Assembly (NCBI GenBank): GCA_012521995.1
Contig: JAAYLH010000107.1
Coordinates: 1-35,283, forward strand
Reading direction: 5' to 3'
Source of the DNA: Bacteroidales bacterium
GTDB taxonomy: Bacteria > Bacteroidota > Bacteroidia > Bacteroidales > UBA7960
Length of the DNA stretch: 35,283 nt
Below the pieces are notes generated by a model, which worked only from the letters and a program-made list of their open reading frames with translations, was not told where the DNA came from and searched no databases. Positions 9,656 to 33,032 of this stretch are shown one piece after another. How positions within the stretch are numbered: the stretch's first letter is position 1; each line of letters opens with the position of its first letter. Position numbers and translations under genes: made by a program.

Positions 9656-11272
9656 ATGAAAATAAAATCCGCAATCAGCATGTTCCTGCTGCTGGCTCCG
9701 GGCCTTTGGGCTCTGGGTCAGCCAGTGCAGGTCACTTCCGAAATGAAGGAGGCTACGATCTTTTTTCAGGGGGCTCAGCTCACACGCGAGGCCCAGGTCA
9801 GGGTGCCTGCCGGCATCAACGAACTGGTGTTTACCCAACTTCCTCTTGATATTGATGCTTCAAGCATTCAGGTAAGAGCCACAGGAGCCCTTACCATCCT
9901 TTCAGTTAGTCACAGGACCAATTTTTTGGAAAGCCCGGCTTTAAGCAAAGAGATCAGGCAAATGGAGGACAGCCTCAGGTTTTACAAGAACCGTCTGGAT
10001 CTCAACCGTGCCACCCTCAAGGTCTATGAAGAAGAGGAAGCCTTGCTGGCTGCCAACCGTTCACTAGGAGGCAGCGAGCGGGGGGTGCAGGTTGCAGAAC
10101 TGAAGGCTGCCGCCGATTTCCTCCGCCAGCGTCTGCAGGAGATTAAAGCCAACTGGCTGAAGGTCCGCCAGGATGTTGAGAAGGATGAAGAACGCTACAA
10201 CCGCATAAACCAGCAACTCAGCCGTCTGCGGGGAAATTCAACGGCCCAGGTGGGCGAGGTGGTCGTACAGGTTTCTGCCCATGCCGCTTCCAATTCAAAC
10301 TTTTCCTTGAGCTACAACATATACCAGGCCGGCTGGGTGCCCGTTTACGACGTCAGAGTAGCCGATATAGACCGCAATCTCGAACTTATGCTAAAGGCAG
10401 ATGCTTTCCAGAACACGGGGGAAGACTGGAAGAATGTAAGGCTTACCTTTTCTACAGGCAATCCGCGTCAATGGGGGCAGAAACCCCGGCTCTCCCAGTG
10501 GTTTCTGCGCTATGAGGAGGATGTTGTCGCCCTGCGGGCAAGACAGGCCGGCGCTGTTTTAAACGAAGTATATGCAATGGATGCTGAAGCAGCACAGTAT
10601 GCTCCTGCGCCCAAAGCCGAAGAAGCGCTTTCGGCAGAGGATTTTGTCCAGGTTCAGGAGGGGCAGACGACCCGCGAATTTGTGGTAAACACCCCTTACA
10701 ACCTTTTCTCGGGAAGAGATCGGCGGGTGGTGGAACTGGAGGGGCACAGCCTTCCTGCGCAATATGAGTACTATGTGGTGCCTAAACTACACACCGATGC
10801 CTTCCTGGTAGCCCGGGTGGCTGACTGGCAGGATTACGCCCTGCTGCCCGGGGAGGCCAACCTCTTTATGGAGGGCACCTTCCTGGGCAAGACCTTCATT
10901 GACCCGGGCATGACAACGGACACCCTCGAACTGTCCCTGGGCCGTGATCAGAATATTATCGTAAAACGCGAACGCATCAAAGACCAGAGCAAGCGTAATT
11001 TCCTGGGCAACCGCACCACCGATACCGTGGGATGGGAGGTCAGCGCCCGCAACAACAAAGGGGTACCCATCACCCTGACCATCCAGGACCAGGTGCCATT
11101 GTCAACCCAGCAGGATATCGAAGTGTCTGTGGAAGAAATGTCGGGTGCTGCCTACGACAAGGACCGCGGCTTCCTGAGCTGGAGGATGGAACTGCGCAGT
11201 GGGGAAACCCAGCAGAGGACCCTGCGCTATACGGTACGATATCCTAAAAATAGAAGAATCATCCTGGAATAA
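9656..11272 (+). CDS. Mucoidy inhibitor MuiA family protein (DUF4140/DUF4139)
   Basis: This is an exported protein of 538 residues. The signal peptide is MKIKSAISMFLLLAPGLWALG, cut near GQ. A DUF4140 domain follows at about 25-125 (ATIFFQGAQLTREAQVRVPAG), then a charged coiled-coil region to about 205. The DUF4139 beta-sandwich begins at about 215 (YNIYQAGWVPVYDVRV) and runs to the end. The family is named after a Xanthomonas locus linked to mucoidy, but its biochemical role is not established. It is 23 bases downstream of the DUF4476 gene and ends at a strong terminator. Both neighbours are periplasmic or surface proteins, so a shared envelope role is possible but unproven. Confidence 0.85.
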   Translation: MKIKSAISMFLLLAPGLWALGQPVQVTSEMKEATIFFQGAQLTREAQVRVPAGINELVFTQLPLDIDASSIQVRATGALTILSVSHRTNFLESPALSKEIRQMEDSLRFYKNRLDLNRATLKVYEEEEALLAANRSLGGSERGVQVAELKAAADFLRQRLQEIKANWLKVRQDVEKDEERYNRINQQLSRLRGNSTAQVGEVVVQVSAHAASNSNFSLSYNIYQAGWVPVYDVRVADIDRNLELMLKADAFQNTGEDWKNVRLTFSTGNPRQWGQKPRLSQWFLRYEEDVVALRARQAGAVLNEVYAMDAEAAQYAPAPKAEEALSAEDFVQVQEGQTTREFVVNTPYNLFSGRDRRVVELEGHSLPAQYEYYVVPKLHTDAFLVARVADWQDYALLPGEANLFMEGTFLGKTFIDPGMTTDTLELSLGRDQNIIVKRERIKDQSKRNFLGNRTTDTVGWEVSARNNKGVPITLTIQDQVPLSTQQDIEVSVEEMSGAAYDKDRGFLSWRMELRSGETQQRTLRYTVRYPKNRRIILE

Positions 11273-14865: not shown

Positions 14866-15609
14866 ATGATGAAAGCAAGCGTAATGAAAAAAAGCAACAG
14901 GATGGCAAGCCTGGTCCTGCTGGCCCTGTTTTTTGCAAGTTCTGCCTTTGTAGCCTGCGGCAGCTCAATCAGCGGTAGCGGTATTATTGCCTCCGAAATC
15001 CGCGACACCCCATCTTTTTCTTCAGTATCGGTTGGCAGCGCCATCAAACTGGTAATCAGCCAGGGCTCCCCCTATGAGGTTTTGGTTACCGCCGATGACA
15101 ACCTCCTTCCATACATACGCACGGAAGTATCAGGCAATACCCTGAAGATTGGCGTAGAACCCATGACCTCCCTGCGCAACCATAAGGATATCGTGGTGCA
15201 TGTTACCGCCCCGATCTTTGAAAAGATCAGTTGCAGCGGGGCCGCCGAAGTGGAAGCCCCTAATCTGCTCACACAGGAGTCCCTGGTAATAAAGTGCAGT
15301 GGGGCAGGGAATGTTAAACTTGAGGTGGAGGCTGCAAGCCTCGAGGTGGATGCCAGCGGGGCCTCTGATGTGCGCCTGGAGGGCAATACCCGTTTCCTGA
15401 AAGCGGAGCTCTCAGGAGCCTCCGATTTGAAATCGTATGGCCTCTACTGCGAGCTTGCTGAGGTGGGCTTAAGCGGTGCCAGCGATATGCAGATTACCGT
15501 TTCCGGGCAGGTCACGGGTAAGGCCAGCGGCGCCTCAAGCCTGAAAGTGGCTGGCGGTGCATCTCTAAATGTCAATACCAGCGGCGCATCCAGCGTTTCT
15601 TCCCGTTAG
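14866..15609 (+). CDS. Head-GIN domain (DUF2807) lipoprotein
   Basis: This is a 247-residue exported protein. A signal sequence ends at a lipobox-like SAFVAC, and then SGSGIIASE and FSSVSVGSAIKLVISQG open the head-GIN domain. The rest is a repetitive beta-helix-like region in which SGA or SGAS recurs about every 18-22 residues (SCSGAAEV, KCSGAGNV, DASGASDV, ELSGASDL, GLSGASDM, KASGASSL, NTSGASSV). This is the usual DUF2807 pattern, whose function is unknown. Three Met codons (1, 2 and 7) precede the signal sequence, so the start may be 14866 or 14884. A terminator follows the stop. Confidence 0.87.
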   Translation: MMKASVMKKSNRMASLVLLALFFASSAFVACGSSISGSGIIASEIRDTPSFSSVSVGSAIKLVISQGSPYEVLVTADDNLLPYIRTEVSGNTLKIGVEPMTSLRNHKDIVVHVTAPIFEKISCSGAAEVEAPNLLTQESLVIKCSGAGNVKLEVEAASLEVDASGASDVRLEGNTRFLKAELSGASDLKSYGLYCELAEVGLSGASDMQITVSGQVTGKASGASSLKVAGGASLNVNTSGASSVSSR

Positions 15610-15633: not shown

Positions 15634-15682
15634 GAAGGAGGCCGTCTCAAGGTGATGCTTTGAGATGGCCTCTTCCTTTTTT
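15634..15682 (+). terminator. Intrinsic terminator after the head-GIN gene
   Basis: GAGGCCGTCTCAA (from 15638) pairs with TTGAGATGGCCTC (to 15672) with one mismatch. The stem is extended by AAG/CTT and followed by six T. Confidence 0.78.
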
Positions 15683-15765
15683 CGCAATCGCATTTTTGTT
15701 TCATAATTGTTTCCAGGCAAACCCGGGTCATGCCTCCCAAAAGCAGTTTCAGGGAGGAGACATTA

Positions 15766-15864
15766 CCGTACTTTAGACGTACCTAAGACGTACTTAAGAC
15801 GTACTTAAGACGTACATAATCCGTCTTAAGTCCGTCTTAAGTCCGTTTAATGTTTGTTTAAAAT
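15766..15864. repeat. Nine tandem 11-bp units forming a long hairpin
   Basis: Period-11 units run without a break: CCGTACTTTAG, ACGTACCTAAG, ACGTACTTAAG twice, ACGTACATAAT, CCGTCTTAAGT twice, then two more degenerate units. The unit orientation flips near 15820. As a result 15793-15812 and 15822-15841 are inverted copies that match at 19 of 20 positions around a 9-base loop, and weaker pairing extends outward to about 15786 and 15848. There is no T-run after the hairpin, so it is not a standard terminator. The array lies between the head-GIN terminator and the tRNA-Ser gene. I see no gene in 15683-16095. Confidence 0.85.
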
Positions 15865-16095
15865 ACGTTTTAGCTTTGAGTAAGGATAGGGAGGGAAATA
15901 TTCAGGAAAGTATATCAGGGGCTGACAGGTGGGGTTTTACCCAGGGGTTGCGCTTTGATGGTAAGCGGATAAGAAGTTTGGCCACAGACGCAGAAGAGTC
16001 AACCTCAGTCCTTTGAGGTGGTCTCTCCTTTGATTTTTTACCGGATTAAAAAAAAGAAAAGCCACCGAAGTGGCTTTTGATATAAAGGGAGGCTT

Positions 16096-16183
<88 letters not shown>

Positions 16184-17781: not shown

Positions 17782-17867
17782 GCGAAATTTTTTATGCAAA
17801 TTAATGAAAATATGTTTGTGCTTCCCAACTTATCTGCCTTTTTAAACCCAAAAGCCGGCAATTCTCT

Positions 17868-17898
17868 TTTGCTTTCAGCGGGAATATTATTAACTTTG
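17868..17898 (+). promoter_or_regulatory. Promoter upstream of the TPP riboswitch
   Basis: TTTG (17868-17871), a 19-base spacer and TAACTTTG (17891-17898) match both Bacteroidota promoter elements exactly. Transcription would begin a few bases before the riboswitch at 17912. Confidence 0.75.
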
Positions 17899-17911
17899 CA
17901 TTGCTTTTCAA

Positions 17912-17993
17912 GAAATAGGGGTGCCCTAAATCACGGGCTGAGATCAAACCCATTGAACCTGCTCCGGGTAATGCCGGCGAAGGGAAGGGATAT
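17912..17993 (+). promoter_or_regulatory. TPP riboswitch (THI element)
   Basis: The conserved blocks appear in order: GGGGTGCC, GGGCTGAGA, ACCC, GAACCTG, CGGGTAATGCCGGCG and AAGGGA. These are the hallmarks of the thiamine pyrophosphate aptamer. It lies between a promoter at 17868 and the receptor ATG at 18061. Downstream, CCCTATTT (18014-18021) is an exact complement of AAATAGGG (17913-17920) at the 5' edge of the aptamer, and GAGCGG/CCGCTC (18001-18028) can form a stem around it. These may make up the expression platform. No T-run is seen, so control of translation is as likely as termination. Confidence 0.93.
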
Positions 17994-18060
17994 AAACAAA
18001 GAGCGGTCTTTTTCCCTATTTTCCGCTCAATGTTTAACCAGAAAAAAAGGAATTTTTAAA

Positions 18061-20493
18061 ATGAGAAGAAAGATGCTGGTCACGGCTTTATGCCTGATCA
18101 TGTCATTGGCTGGTATGAGCCAGCATGCACTGCAGGGCCGCATTTATGACAAGGAGGCCCTGATGGCCCTGCCCGGGGCCAATGTTGTTGTAAAAGGAAC
18201 TTTTAAAGGGGTTTTCACAAACAACGAAGGCCGTTTTGAGCTCGATAACCTGCCTGCAGGATTGGCAGTGGTTCTGGTGAGCTACATAGGATATGAAACG
18301 GCTGAGGTGACTATTGAGCTGCCAGCCCGTTCGCCTCTTGAGGTTGGCCTGGTGCCCACAGCTACCCTGGCGGGCGAGGTGATCGTAACCGGCTTGCGTG
18401 CCGATGGGCGCACCCCTGCAACCTATACCGACATCCGGGGCGATGAGCTGGCTAGCAGAAACCTGGGGCAGGACCTGCCCTTCCTGATCAGTCTGACGCC
18501 CTCGGTGATTGTCAGCTCGGATGCCGGGGCAGGGGTAGGCTATACCTGGATGAAGATCAGGGGCAGCGACGATACCCGCATCAACGTGACCCTCAATGGA
18601 GTGCCGCTCAACAACCCTGAATCGCACGGCGTCTGGTGGGTCAACACCCCCGATGTTTCCACATCGGTCAGCAGTATGCAGGTGCAGCGCGGAGTGGGGC
18701 TCAGCACCCACGGGGCAGGGGCCTTCGGCGCCACCATTAGCCTGAAGACCCACGACCTGAAGGAAACCACTTATGCTGAGCTGGAGAACTCCTTCGGCTC
18801 CTTCAACACCCTGAAAAACACCGCCAGCTTCGGCACAGGCCTGTTGAAGGGCAAATGGGCCTTCGACGGACGACTTTCCAGGATCGCTTCCGATGGCTAT
18901 GTCGATCGTGGCTCCTCCGACCTTAAGTCATTCTACCTCTCAGGAGGCTTTTTTGGCAAAAAGACCGTGATCAAGGCCATTACCTTCTCGGGTACCCAGT
19001 CGACTTACCAGGCCTGGAACGGGGTGCCCGGCTTTCTGCTGGAAACCGACCGCACCTACAACCCTTCGGGCCTTTATTACGACAATGATGGGAATGCCCT
19101 GTTTTATGACAATGAAACCGATAACTACCAGCAGGACCATTATCAGCTCCACCTCTCCCATGCTTTTTCTTCCGAGCTGACAGCCAGTGCTTCCCTGCAC
19201 TACACCCGCGGCCGTGGCTATTATGAGCAGTACCGCTACGACGACAAGTTCAGCAGCTACAACCTGCCCAATGTCGAGCTGGGCGAGCAGACCATCAGCC
19301 GCAGCGACCTGATCAGGCAGCGCTGGCTCGACAATCATTTTGCAGGGATGGTCTTCTCGCTGAACTACAATTCCTTCAACAGGCTCTCGCTTACCTGGGG
19401 TGGCGCGGCCAACCATTACAATGGCCATCACTTTGGCGAGATCATCTGGGCGCGTTATGCCCAGCACGTGAACAAAGACTTCAGGTATTACGACAACGAT
19501 GCCCTGAAGGATGATATCAATACCTATGTGAAGGCCATTTTTGAGCTGCTGCCAGGCTTGAATGTCCTGGCCGATATGCAGTACCGCCATGTGGGCTATA
19601 CCTTTGAAGGCCCTGCCTGGGTGATGGGCGAAGTAGTGCCCATCGACCAGACGGTCAGTTATGATTTCTTCAACCCCAAGGCGGGTATCAGTTGGGCCAT
19701 CAACCCTTCCGGTACTGTTTACACCTTTGCCGGAATCGGCAATCGTGAGCCCGTCAGGCGCGACTTCACCGAGTCCTCGCCCGAAAGCCGCCCCCGCCCC
19801 GAGACCATGCGCAACGTGGAACTGGGCTACCGCTTCCAGGGGAAAAGAACCCTGCTTGCCGCCAACCTTTACCTGATGGATTACAAGGACCAATTGATCC
19901 TCACAGGCCAGATCAATGATGTTGGGGGCTTTACCCGAACCAATATTGAGGACAGCTACCGCGCAGGAATTGAACTGGAGGCAGGCCTGATCATCAGCCC
20001 AAAGCTGCAGTGGCAGGGCAATGCATCCTTCAGCAGGAATAAAATTGAGCTCTTTGTCGAATATTCCGATGCCTACGATAATGACTGGAACTGGACGGGT
20101 ACCGATGTGCAGGAATACCTCGATACTGATATTTCGTTCTCCCCATCGGTGGTGGCTGCAAGCATCTTCACCTTTGAGCCCCTGGAGGACCTCTACCTCA
20201 GCCTGAACAGCAAATATGTGGGCAAGCAGTACATCGACAACACCATGAGCAATGACCGGGCCCTGGACGCTTATTTTGTCAACGATTTAAGGCTGAATTA
20301 CGTGCTTCACCCAAGCTTCTTCCGTGAGGTCGAACTGGTGGCCCAGGTCAGCAACCTCTTTAACGCGCTTTACGAAACTAACGCCTGGATTTATAAGGGC
20401 GTAGTTGGCGACCAGGGGATGACTACCATCGAAGATGGTTATTTTCCCCAGGCAGGAAGGCATTTTATGGCAGGGGTCAATTTTCGCTTCTAA
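18061..20493 (+). CDS. TonB-dependent outer-membrane receptor, probable thiamine (or precursor) transporter
   Basis: This is an 810-residue outer-membrane receptor. After a signal peptide (KMLVTALCLIMSLAGMSQ) comes a CarboxypepD_reg-like beta domain at about 20-100, with GANVVVKGTFKGVFTNNEGR. The TonB plug at about 105-230 includes MKIRGSDDTRINVTLNGVP and VQRGVGLSTHGAGAFGATI. The rest is a 22-strand barrel that ends in aromatic FRF at the carboxyl terminus, as expected for BAM insertion. The open frame extends upstream through the riboswitch to 17794, but the signal peptide fixes the start at 18061. The TPP riboswitch points to thiamine or a related vitamer as the ligand. No pnuT or thiamine kinase gene follows. 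Confidence 0.92.
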   Translation: MRRKMLVTALCLIMSLAGMSQHALQGRIYDKEALMALPGANVVVKGTFKGVFTNNEGRFELDNLPAGLAVVLVSYIGYETAEVTIELPARSPLEVGLVPTATLAGEVIVTGLRADGRTPATYTDIRGDELASRNLGQDLPFLISLTPSVIVSSDAGAGVGYTWMKIRGSDDTRINVTLNGVPLNNPESHGVWWVNTPDVSTSVSSMQVQRGVGLSTHGAGAFGATISLKTHDLKETTYAELENSFGSFNTLKNTASFGTGLLKGKWAFDGRLSRIASDGYVDRGSSDLKSFYLSGGFFGKKTVIKAITFSGTQSTYQAWNGVPGFLLETDRTYNPSGLYYDNDGNALFYDNETDNYQQDHYQLHLSHAFSSELTASASLHYTRGRGYYEQYRYDDKFSSYNLPNVELGEQTISRSDLIRQRWLDNHFAGMVFSLNYNSFNRLSLTWGGAANHYNGHHFGEIIWARYAQHVNKDFRYYDNDALKDDINTYVKAIFELLPGLNVLADMQYRHVGYTFEGPAWVMGEVVPIDQTVSYDFFNPKAGISWAINPSGTVYTFAGIGNREPVRRDFTESSPESRPRPETMRNVELGYRFQGKRTLLAANLYLMDYKDQLILTGQINDVGGFTRTNIEDSYRAGIELEAGLIISPKLQWQGNASFSRNKIELFVEYSDAYDNDWNWTGTDVQEYLDTDISFSPSVVAASIFTFEPLEDLYLSLNSKYVGKQYIDNTMSNDRALDAYFVNDLRLNYVLHPSFFREVELVAQVSNLFNALYETNAWIYKGVVGDQGMTTIEDGYFPQAGRHFMAGVNFRF

Positions 20494-32497: not shown

Positions 32498-32658
32498 GCC
32501 TTTCCTCCTTTCAGGTCAATGAAAGCCATCTCTGAAAAATAAGCCATTCATTAGCCCACACTGGGCAGGGGCCTTCCTGTGCCCCTTTTGAACACCTACC
32601 CGGGCCCTTACTTCCTCCTTTCTGCTGAACAGGGGAAGGGAGCCGAAAGGGCTTTGGA

Positions 32659-32691
32659 ACGGACTTGAAACGGACTTGGTACGGACTTGAC
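32659..32691. repeat. Three tandem 11-bp units
   Basis: ACGGACTTGAA, ACGGACTTGGT and ACGGACTTGAC follow each other with no gap. A degenerate fourth unit (AGGGCTTTGGA) comes just before at 32648-32658. They share ACGGACTT with the minus-strand reading of the array at 15821-15842. The wider stretch 32498-33032 holds no gene that I can support. Confidence 0.8.
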
Positions 32692-33032
32692 AGGAAGGGG
32701 TCCTCGTTTTGAAACAGGAATAGAGTGCCTGAAAGGAATAGAAAAACGTGGAGCGGGGAATACAAACGGTCTTTTTTTTTGTCAGAATTTTTATCCTGCA
32801 TAATTTGGAGCGACGGAAAACTTTTCCTGCGCTTAAGCAAAAAATCCTTTAACCGGGAGAATTTTAAGTAAACGGTTTTAAATGAGTATCTTAAGCCATC
32901 ACGGGTTTCTTTTTTTATGAATTATTAATACAAGGGGCCATCAACTTCAATTACATCATTTCAGGATAAATCACTAATATTGCACTCACGTTTTGAATAG
33001 TGCCTGAATTGTAAAAAAAAGATAAGGAGTTC

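Follow-up and report, generated by a model that had tools for sequence, protein, structure and literature searches.

The inverted period-11 array at about 15766-15878 of the window (the whole 35,283-nucleotide stretch of Bacteroidales contig JAAYLH010000107.1 analysed here) belongs to a family of such arrays, dispersed through the intergenic DNA of its genome and recurring directly upstream of genes for proteins of the DUF6266 family (PF19781). Both the existence of the family and its link to DUF6266 are firmly established. As to what the arrays are, we regard it as close to an even call, by analogy with ParR/parC, that they act as operator-like binding arrays in a DUF6266 regulatory unit that also has solo copies scattered elsewhere, with DUF6266 itself as the most likely binder. 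Many dispersed bacterial repeats have no known partner, and here one is tied to a protein family of unknown function. The repeat class is set by period and symmetry more than by sequence, its DUF6266 link spans many families of one order, and that link offers a direct test of what repeat and protein both do. The features of the window that matter here are the following.

14866..15609, plus strand: upstream neighbour gene, 247 amino acids, putative head-GIN (name taken from the earlier, sequence-only reading)
15638..15690, plus strand: terminator-like hairpin with T-run after the 247-aa gene, read from the sequence; the array lies beyond it
15766..15820, plus strand: left half-array, five 11-bp units (CCGTACTTTAG, ACGTACCTAAG, ACGTACTTAAG twice, ACGTACATAAT), the more uniform arm
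15821..15878, minus strand: right half-array, inverse orientation, units of the ACGGACTTAAG type, the more variable arm
15767..15864, no strand: main span of the predicted hairpin, from folding
16096..16183, minus strand: tRNA-Ser (tga), convergent neighbour on the other side of the array
32645..32694, plus strand: second, shorter period-11 array, unit ACGGACTTGRW, head to tail, between divergent ORFs

The sequence-only reading had described nine phased 11-bp units that reverse orientation and form a hairpin, and TRF, a unit scan and folding all confirm this. TRF reports period 11 at 15767-15830 (5.9 copies) and 15820-15850 (2.9 copies), and the unit scan finds five forward and four reverse units followed by decayed ones, the minus-strand units of the right half decaying outward to about 15878. 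The span first proposed, 15766-15864, holds the main units and stops short at its far end, where the array continues for about 12-14 bp; the family profile R1 described below matches 15765-15876. The fold consists of two 10-bp stems with one mismatch between them and a 9-base loop, in keeping with the described arm match of 19 of 20 around that loop, which becomes 20 of 21 with one base added. Its minimum free energy is -43.5, whereas shuffles average -22.2 (z -6.6; 0 of 200 shuffles equal it). An intrinsic terminator was rejected for the array, which has no T-run and lies 157 bp beyond the stop codon and beyond another terminator-like hairpin; the earlier view that it is not the terminator of the upstream gene is thus consistent with the sequence. 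The array has no match in Rfam 15 at the gathering score, the window yielding a tRNA and a TPP riboswitch only. This riboswitch (17907-18002, plus strand) lies within the 5' part of an ORF listed at 17794-20493, so that the gene probably starts later. The two-unit pattern of the array at 32645-32694 recurs in the same genome at C67:4707 and C93:81890, and with one mismatch at C56:230.

A DNA search of the window's own genome (G000) with the array returned 36 matches, some of them both strands of one place, while a DNA search of 39 relatives' genomes found the array in its own genome and once each in two congeners. Three ACGNANNT units at 11-bp steps, with at most two mismatches, occur at 396 places in G000 versus 4 for the reversed control; the corresponding figures for the congeners are 44 versus 6 (G002), 47 versus 3 (G003) and 1 versus 10 (G001). 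Allowing three mismatches in the ACGNANNT-type pattern was too loose (193+191 places versus 110+75 for the control) and was dropped. Profile R1, which uses sequence only and was built from an alignment (A1) of 33 copies, finds at least 46 strong array places in G000, of which 46 were kept for counting with at least eight weaker ones excluded, and 12 each in G002 and G003 among the matches listed; its search of G001 shows no array among the matches listed. The columns ACG-A--T-A- are invariant in both arms of the 33 aligned copies, and positions 6, 7, 9 and 11 vary, as does position 4 in one arm. The unit code in G000 is accordingly written ACGTAnnTnAn, the two arms being inverted half-arrays of that unit, and copies generally have one arm more uniform than its partner. 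Bit scores of units are inflated because the script picked units fitting five of six code positions, and the 33-copy alignment is the fairer guide.

A chance local duplication would account for the absence of the array beside the same tRNA in two congeners. It does not account for the pattern places (396 against 4 in the control), for a fixed unit code or for the link to one gene family; the genome searches and profile R1 already refute it, and its probability is negligible. The sequence-only reading had named the absence of similar arrays elsewhere in the genome as a sign of such a duplication, and that absence is excluded. Its suggestion of an intergenic repeat element is established by the genome search, by profile R1 and by the gene context of the copies.

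None of the 46 copies in G000 overlaps a called gene. Eighteen lie in convergent gaps, 23 in tandem and 3 in divergent ones, and 2 have one neighbour uncalled; the excess of convergent over divergent gaps has a P of about 0.0015. These figures come from a simple codon-usage gene caller that is blind to tRNAs, with an array-free gap baseline of only 11, and the window copy is for that reason scored as tandem despite the convergent tRNA on its right. Terminator-like sites facing away from the array occur on both sides of 7 copies, on one side of 21 and on neither side of 18. Because facing terminator-like sites flank many copies, many of the arrays sit in spacers that look non-transcribed. A larger conserved element around all copies was not found, only T-rich terminator-like stretches, and one subfamily has a weak right flank in common.

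This placement, 18 convergent against 3 divergent places and in that respect BIME-like, would also be produced by an unrelated host protein, for instance a nucleoid protein or gyrase, that docks between gene ends, the DUF6266 link being a by-product of its regulating DUF6266. Some array-rich genomes show no DUF6266, which such a protein would explain. One congener is without arrays among the matches listed, which would be odd for a housekeeping role, and unit sequences differ among the DUF6266 paralogues of one genome; we therefore consider docking of a host protein improbable.

The strong predicted hairpin makes an RNA element an obvious candidate, meaning that a transcribed hairpin would end, protect or regulate transcripts, and 11 bp is also the pitch of A-form RNA. 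A hairpin predicted this strongly is no proof of RNA, however. In 31 arrays, own arms pair at 0.722 and swapped arms at 0.714 (P 0.12), and swaps within the subfamily give 0.721 (P 0.40). The loop-proximal unit alone pairs better with its own partner (0.786 vs 0.730, P 0.001), an excess that follows subfamily (P 0.20 within it), and compensatory changes between the arms give no support to a conserved pairing (covariation term -0.15). Since pairing at the variable positions is as good across copies as within one, the hairpin is a product of the inverted layout and not a conserved feature; the arms match because both carry one motif. What is conserved is a motif in two orientations, and the hairpin is secondary. 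The profile strand runs with transcription in 12 of 23 tandem cases and against it in 11 of 23, and terminator-like sites face the array on both sides in 20 of the 46 copies, on one side in 21 and on none in 5. Intergenic copies in either orientation, often between terminator-like sites, point to DNA rather than RNA. The arm-swap test and orientation led us to reject the idea that solo copies are conserved as RNA hairpins, and the RNA structure that the sequence-only reading had offered as one option is disfavoured for dispersed copies by that test and by genomic placement. For the gene-linked form, the -7 motif of some genes just precedes the array, which would make the array the 5' leader of the DUF6266 mRNA; against this, z falls below -2 in only 20 of 40 folded upstream arrays outside the genus. 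Covariation between arms does not exceed what subfamily explains, and we judge an RNA element decidedly improbable.

Our preferred reading, the operator-like array, draws on the linkage to DUF6266. Several arrays lie about 50-70 bp upstream of paralogous PF19781 genes, and six further members in the genus have weaker arrays upstream. DUF6266 matches number 8 in G000, 6 in G003 (2 of them under the cut-off) and 2 in G002; G001 has neither a DUF6266 match nor arrays. We scored upstream regions with a test that is blind to unit sequence, which takes, for a given lag, the 55-bp window with most matches within 330 bp and applies a cut of 33. From the order, 104 of 125 DUF6266 rows were tested, the other 21 being left out (fragments, second domains and a few full genes); the genus supplied six more genes, with 3 of 16 genus rows left out, and one of the resulting 110 had no upstream DNA. 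At lag 11, 37 of these 109 genes have an array in the 330 bp upstream and one of 109 in the 330 bp downstream, while the upstream control lags 8, 9, 10, 12, 13 and 14 give 0, 1, 1, 0, 0 and 1 genes. The signal extends beyond the genus, where 26 of 96 DUF6266 genes, from 12 family codes, have an upstream period-11 array; within the genus 11 of 13 tested genes pass, five of them known beforehand, and a twelfth scores 32. The five loci known in advance to carry arrays (L061, L193, L195, L219, L227) are included in the 109-gene test and were dropped from a separate count of lag-11 peaks, which takes in loci from 20 genomes picked because they bear arrays. In this count, upstream regions totalling 47.4 kb contained 49 peaks, compared with 1 in 50.3 kb of downstream DNA, 0 in 70.9 kb within the genes and 6 across 231 kb of other sequence; at other lags the upstream regions yielded 1-2.

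The linkage is also seen when arrays are the starting point. In G100, G267 and G048, each pattern array located regardless of genes has a DUF6266 match about 100 bp downstream of it, the pattern matches of G048 being the DUF6266 array itself. A DUF6266 match occurs in 43 of 294 genomes of the order, and by a hand count in 10 of the 19 genomes with at least two array matches versus 33 of the 275 others (P 5.6e-5, kinship ignored; among the ten, G244 falls short of the cut-off for DUF6266). Thirteen of the 20 genomes picked for arrays have DUF6266, and the seven that show none comprise two Bacteroidota (loci L104 and L093) and five members of other phyla. In this set 28 of 30 loci were used and 13 of 28 pass; with L337 and L357 removed as runs of N, 11 of 26 usable upstream stretches score at least 33 at lag 11. 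On a tree of 124 DUF6266 members, 48 carry an array (cut 32; one of them, L357, beside a run of N), 62 have none, 10 fall between and 4 are unscored. The array label is clustered on this tree and yet changes often, 22 times against 38 by shuffling. Unit similarity correlates with protein similarity (r 0.38, with 0 of 2000 permutations as high), a correlation carried by pairs above 50% identity, so there is a weak indication of coevolution, units tracking the protein among close relatives only. A search of the PMC literature found nothing on DUF6266 or PF19781.

Since arrays often stand directly in front of DUF6266 genes, DUF6266 is the first candidate for their user, and binding of DUF6266 to the arrays together with self-regulation through them would be the simplest reading, although a third party could bind both operator and solo sites. 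In the mechanism that we propose, the window feature would be a solo copy built from two half-arrays that face each other, each with about five 11-bp units, all of them lined up along roughly one side of the helix. The gene-linked form would lie directly upstream of DUF6266 genes, just before or after the core promoter; a protein, most likely DUF6266 itself, would bind the array cooperatively, and the upstream array would act as the operator of the protein's own gene. The dispersed intergenic copies would then be further docking sites or copies that have spread. The sequence-only reading had raised a protein-binding array among its options; the fixed unit code, the non-covarying arms and the arrays that abut DUF6266 promoters favour that option, all of them indirect support. 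A broader interpretation is that DUF6266 is the basis of a new chromosomal protein-DNA system of the Bacteroidota: this lineage-specific protein would assemble on helix-phased 11-bp arrays, control its own gene through one and mark dozens of non-transcribed spacers, and array sequence would drift freely under a constant period and, often, a constant inverted layout; we hold this only tentatively, on the doubtful side.

The motif TAnnTTTG is the -7 motif of the Bacteroidota. Among 12 genus genes, 7 have it past the array and ahead of the start codon, and the remaining 5 have it within the array bounds as computed. In 11 of 53 genes, none of them among those 12, the motif precedes the array by at most 35 bp (raw counts, without shuffled control); all 11 are outside the genus, many from genomes labelled Prevotellaceae. 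As the position of the motif varies relative to the array, a DNA operator would suit every case, an RNA leader no more than a part of them.

The C-terminal half of DUF6266 models as an FN3/Ig-like sandwich; the model, made with four sequences, has a mean pLDDT of 52.6, and its residues 1-116 fall below 50. A Foldseek search with the model gave no match at E 0.001 or better, and the FN3-like matches appear to be the only sensible ones. Pfam scans of three linked or related members return DUF6266 alone and nothing recognised as DNA-binding. The canonical DUF6266 genes L122, L361 and L363 adjoin lysis-type genes, with short holin-like, lysozyme-like and spanin-like lipoprotein genes (by translation), or Amidase_2 (Pfam), downstream. 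The N-terminal part of DUF6266 also heads longer proteins with other C-termini (L257, L258, L259, L276-L279, and genes of G314, G325 and G326).

Arrays are kept at orthologous sites in four sets of loci (L066/L211/L225, from three species, L051/L216, L190/L217 and L204/L230), where unit number differs by whole 11-bp steps and where the next 45 bp beside the arrays are hardly alignable between G000 and its congeners. Over one arm of three orthologous pairs, unit positions 9 and 11 changed at 14 of 22 sites, positions 2, 7, 8 and 10 at 0 of 49, and the remaining positions at 6 of 68; this tally is from hand-copied blocks, three of four typed pairs being used because the fourth was out of register. 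At the window site the congeners offer only paralogues of the upstream gene, at 26-35% identity, and orthology is therefore anchored on the gene that flanks the array on its other side. In G002 and G003 the tRNA-Ser and the 341-aa gene are present without an array next to them, the alignment ending at the tRNA, and the corresponding stretch of G001 has neither tRNA nor array. Judging from these alignments, the window copy is young or local. Loss in close relatives, which the sequence-only reading had also seen as a sign of chance duplication, is thus found in G002 and G003 at this site and does not extend to the family, other arrays being kept at orthologous sites.

The whole-unit indels between orthologues, and the arrays near the DUF6266 promoter motif, would suit a contingency switch, in which gain or loss of an 11-bp unit (about one helical turn) tunes a nearby promoter. 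Most solo arrays, however, lie in convergent or tandem gaps, at least 130 bp from either neighbour, and we give this explanation hardly any credence.

A stronger competitor is a REPIN- or MITE-like non-autonomous mobile element, with DUF6266 or another enzyme moving the array and solo copies as selfish insertions tolerated past gene ends. One subfamily makes up 22 of the 46 copies in G000, and inspection by eye shows only a single locus of it in G002 and G003; these two congeners also lack the window copy at the tRNA-Ser site. Three arrays of the 22-copy subfamily have an identical five-unit order (3 pairs, a number reached by 19 of 2000 shuffles), although the first four units are shared no more often than in shuffles (4 pairs; 239 of 2000 have as many). 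Two copies in G003 are alike over 250 bp at 94% and two in G002 over 461 bp at 90%, and array placement resembles that of REPs as outlined in part of PMC3733652. Against mobility, the flanks of most copies are unrelated with no common end seen, DUF6266 is no known transposase, the sole Y1 transposase gene found is more than 10 kb from the array listed on its contig, and some arrays stayed at orthologous sites while their flanks diverged. Set beside MITEs, which have common ends with terminal inverted repeats and target duplications, most copies have unrelated flanks and a few share 250-461 bp. We consider a mobile element rather unlikely.

Several known systems resemble the arrays in part. BIMEs differ from them in unit, period and gene linkage. 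Both are mosaics of two-orientation repeats in intergenic DNA. BIMEs are named in PMC3733652. Excerpts of PMC9426499 indicate that ParR of R1 (ParMRC) needs at least two 11-bp repeats and, from reference titles given there, that ten direct repeats flank the promoter in parC of R1 and that ParR autoregulates. The likeness is in 11-bp repeats beside a promoter, bound in that system by a protein of its own operon (same excerpts), and 37 of the 109 DUF6266 genes likewise have an upstream array of short direct repeats, with the promoter motif close by in many genes. Here, in contrast, half-arrays face each other and occur in dozens of copies per genome, and Pfam finds no ribbon-helix-helix domain in three DUF6266 members. 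REPs are mostly located between tandem or convergent genes, according to portions of PMC3116915 and PMC3733652, and the same portions describe REPIN/RAYT elements that are, like the arrays, dispersed, extragenic, inverted and hairpin-capable with one copy class beside a gene. Extragenic dispersal is evident here too, with 0 of 46 copies in called genes, but the arrays consist of 11-bp direct-repeat units instead of an inverted doublet of 20-40 bp palindromes, DUF6266 is not a Y1 transposase, and arm pairing is not conserved. No Y1 (RAYT) gene was found beside a copy in G000, whose one PF01797 match (C20:154-492) is distant from the array listed at 10824, and a RAYT link is unsupported. CGTC-tagged REPs are reported also from Bacteroidetes in the part of PMC3733652 cited; the other strand of the uniform arm likewise has CGTC in nearly every unit and is intergenic, but instead of the single short end-tagged palindrome of that description each arm has about five phased units. 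Because the array fails a defining test of both ParR/parC and REPIN/RAYT, we file it under neither.

Arrays of this kind are not confined to the genus. Of 294 genomes of the order, 46 contain the ACG-type pattern at one or more places when at most one mismatch is allowed, and G000 alone reaches hundreds. Once the strongest are set aside, 13 of the 19 array genomes have few matches, and some of these may be chance. The exact three-unit pattern has at least 80 titled matches in GTDB genomes, 62 of those listed being Bacteroidota and 18 carrying other labels, and the listed matches include Bacteroides oleiciplenus and B. timonensis. Stretches with this pattern also hold period-11 arrays of unrelated units, some inverted. 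A general excess of period 11, as seen by TRF away from the searched arrays, is not clean (32 TRF rows at 11 vs 65 at 7, 38 at 14, 26 at 12 and 10 at 10). Eight stretches of viral contigs have the pattern, and three viral DUF6266 loci were found, none with P0001. Long arrays of ACGTACCTTGG-type units occupy L104 1-340 and L110 5660-5830; the former, in a genome without detectable DUF6266, switches to a different unit with the 11-bp register kept. At L179 3767-3870, TRF away from the searched pattern found an inverted period-11 array of an unrelated unit, ATACCATTATA.
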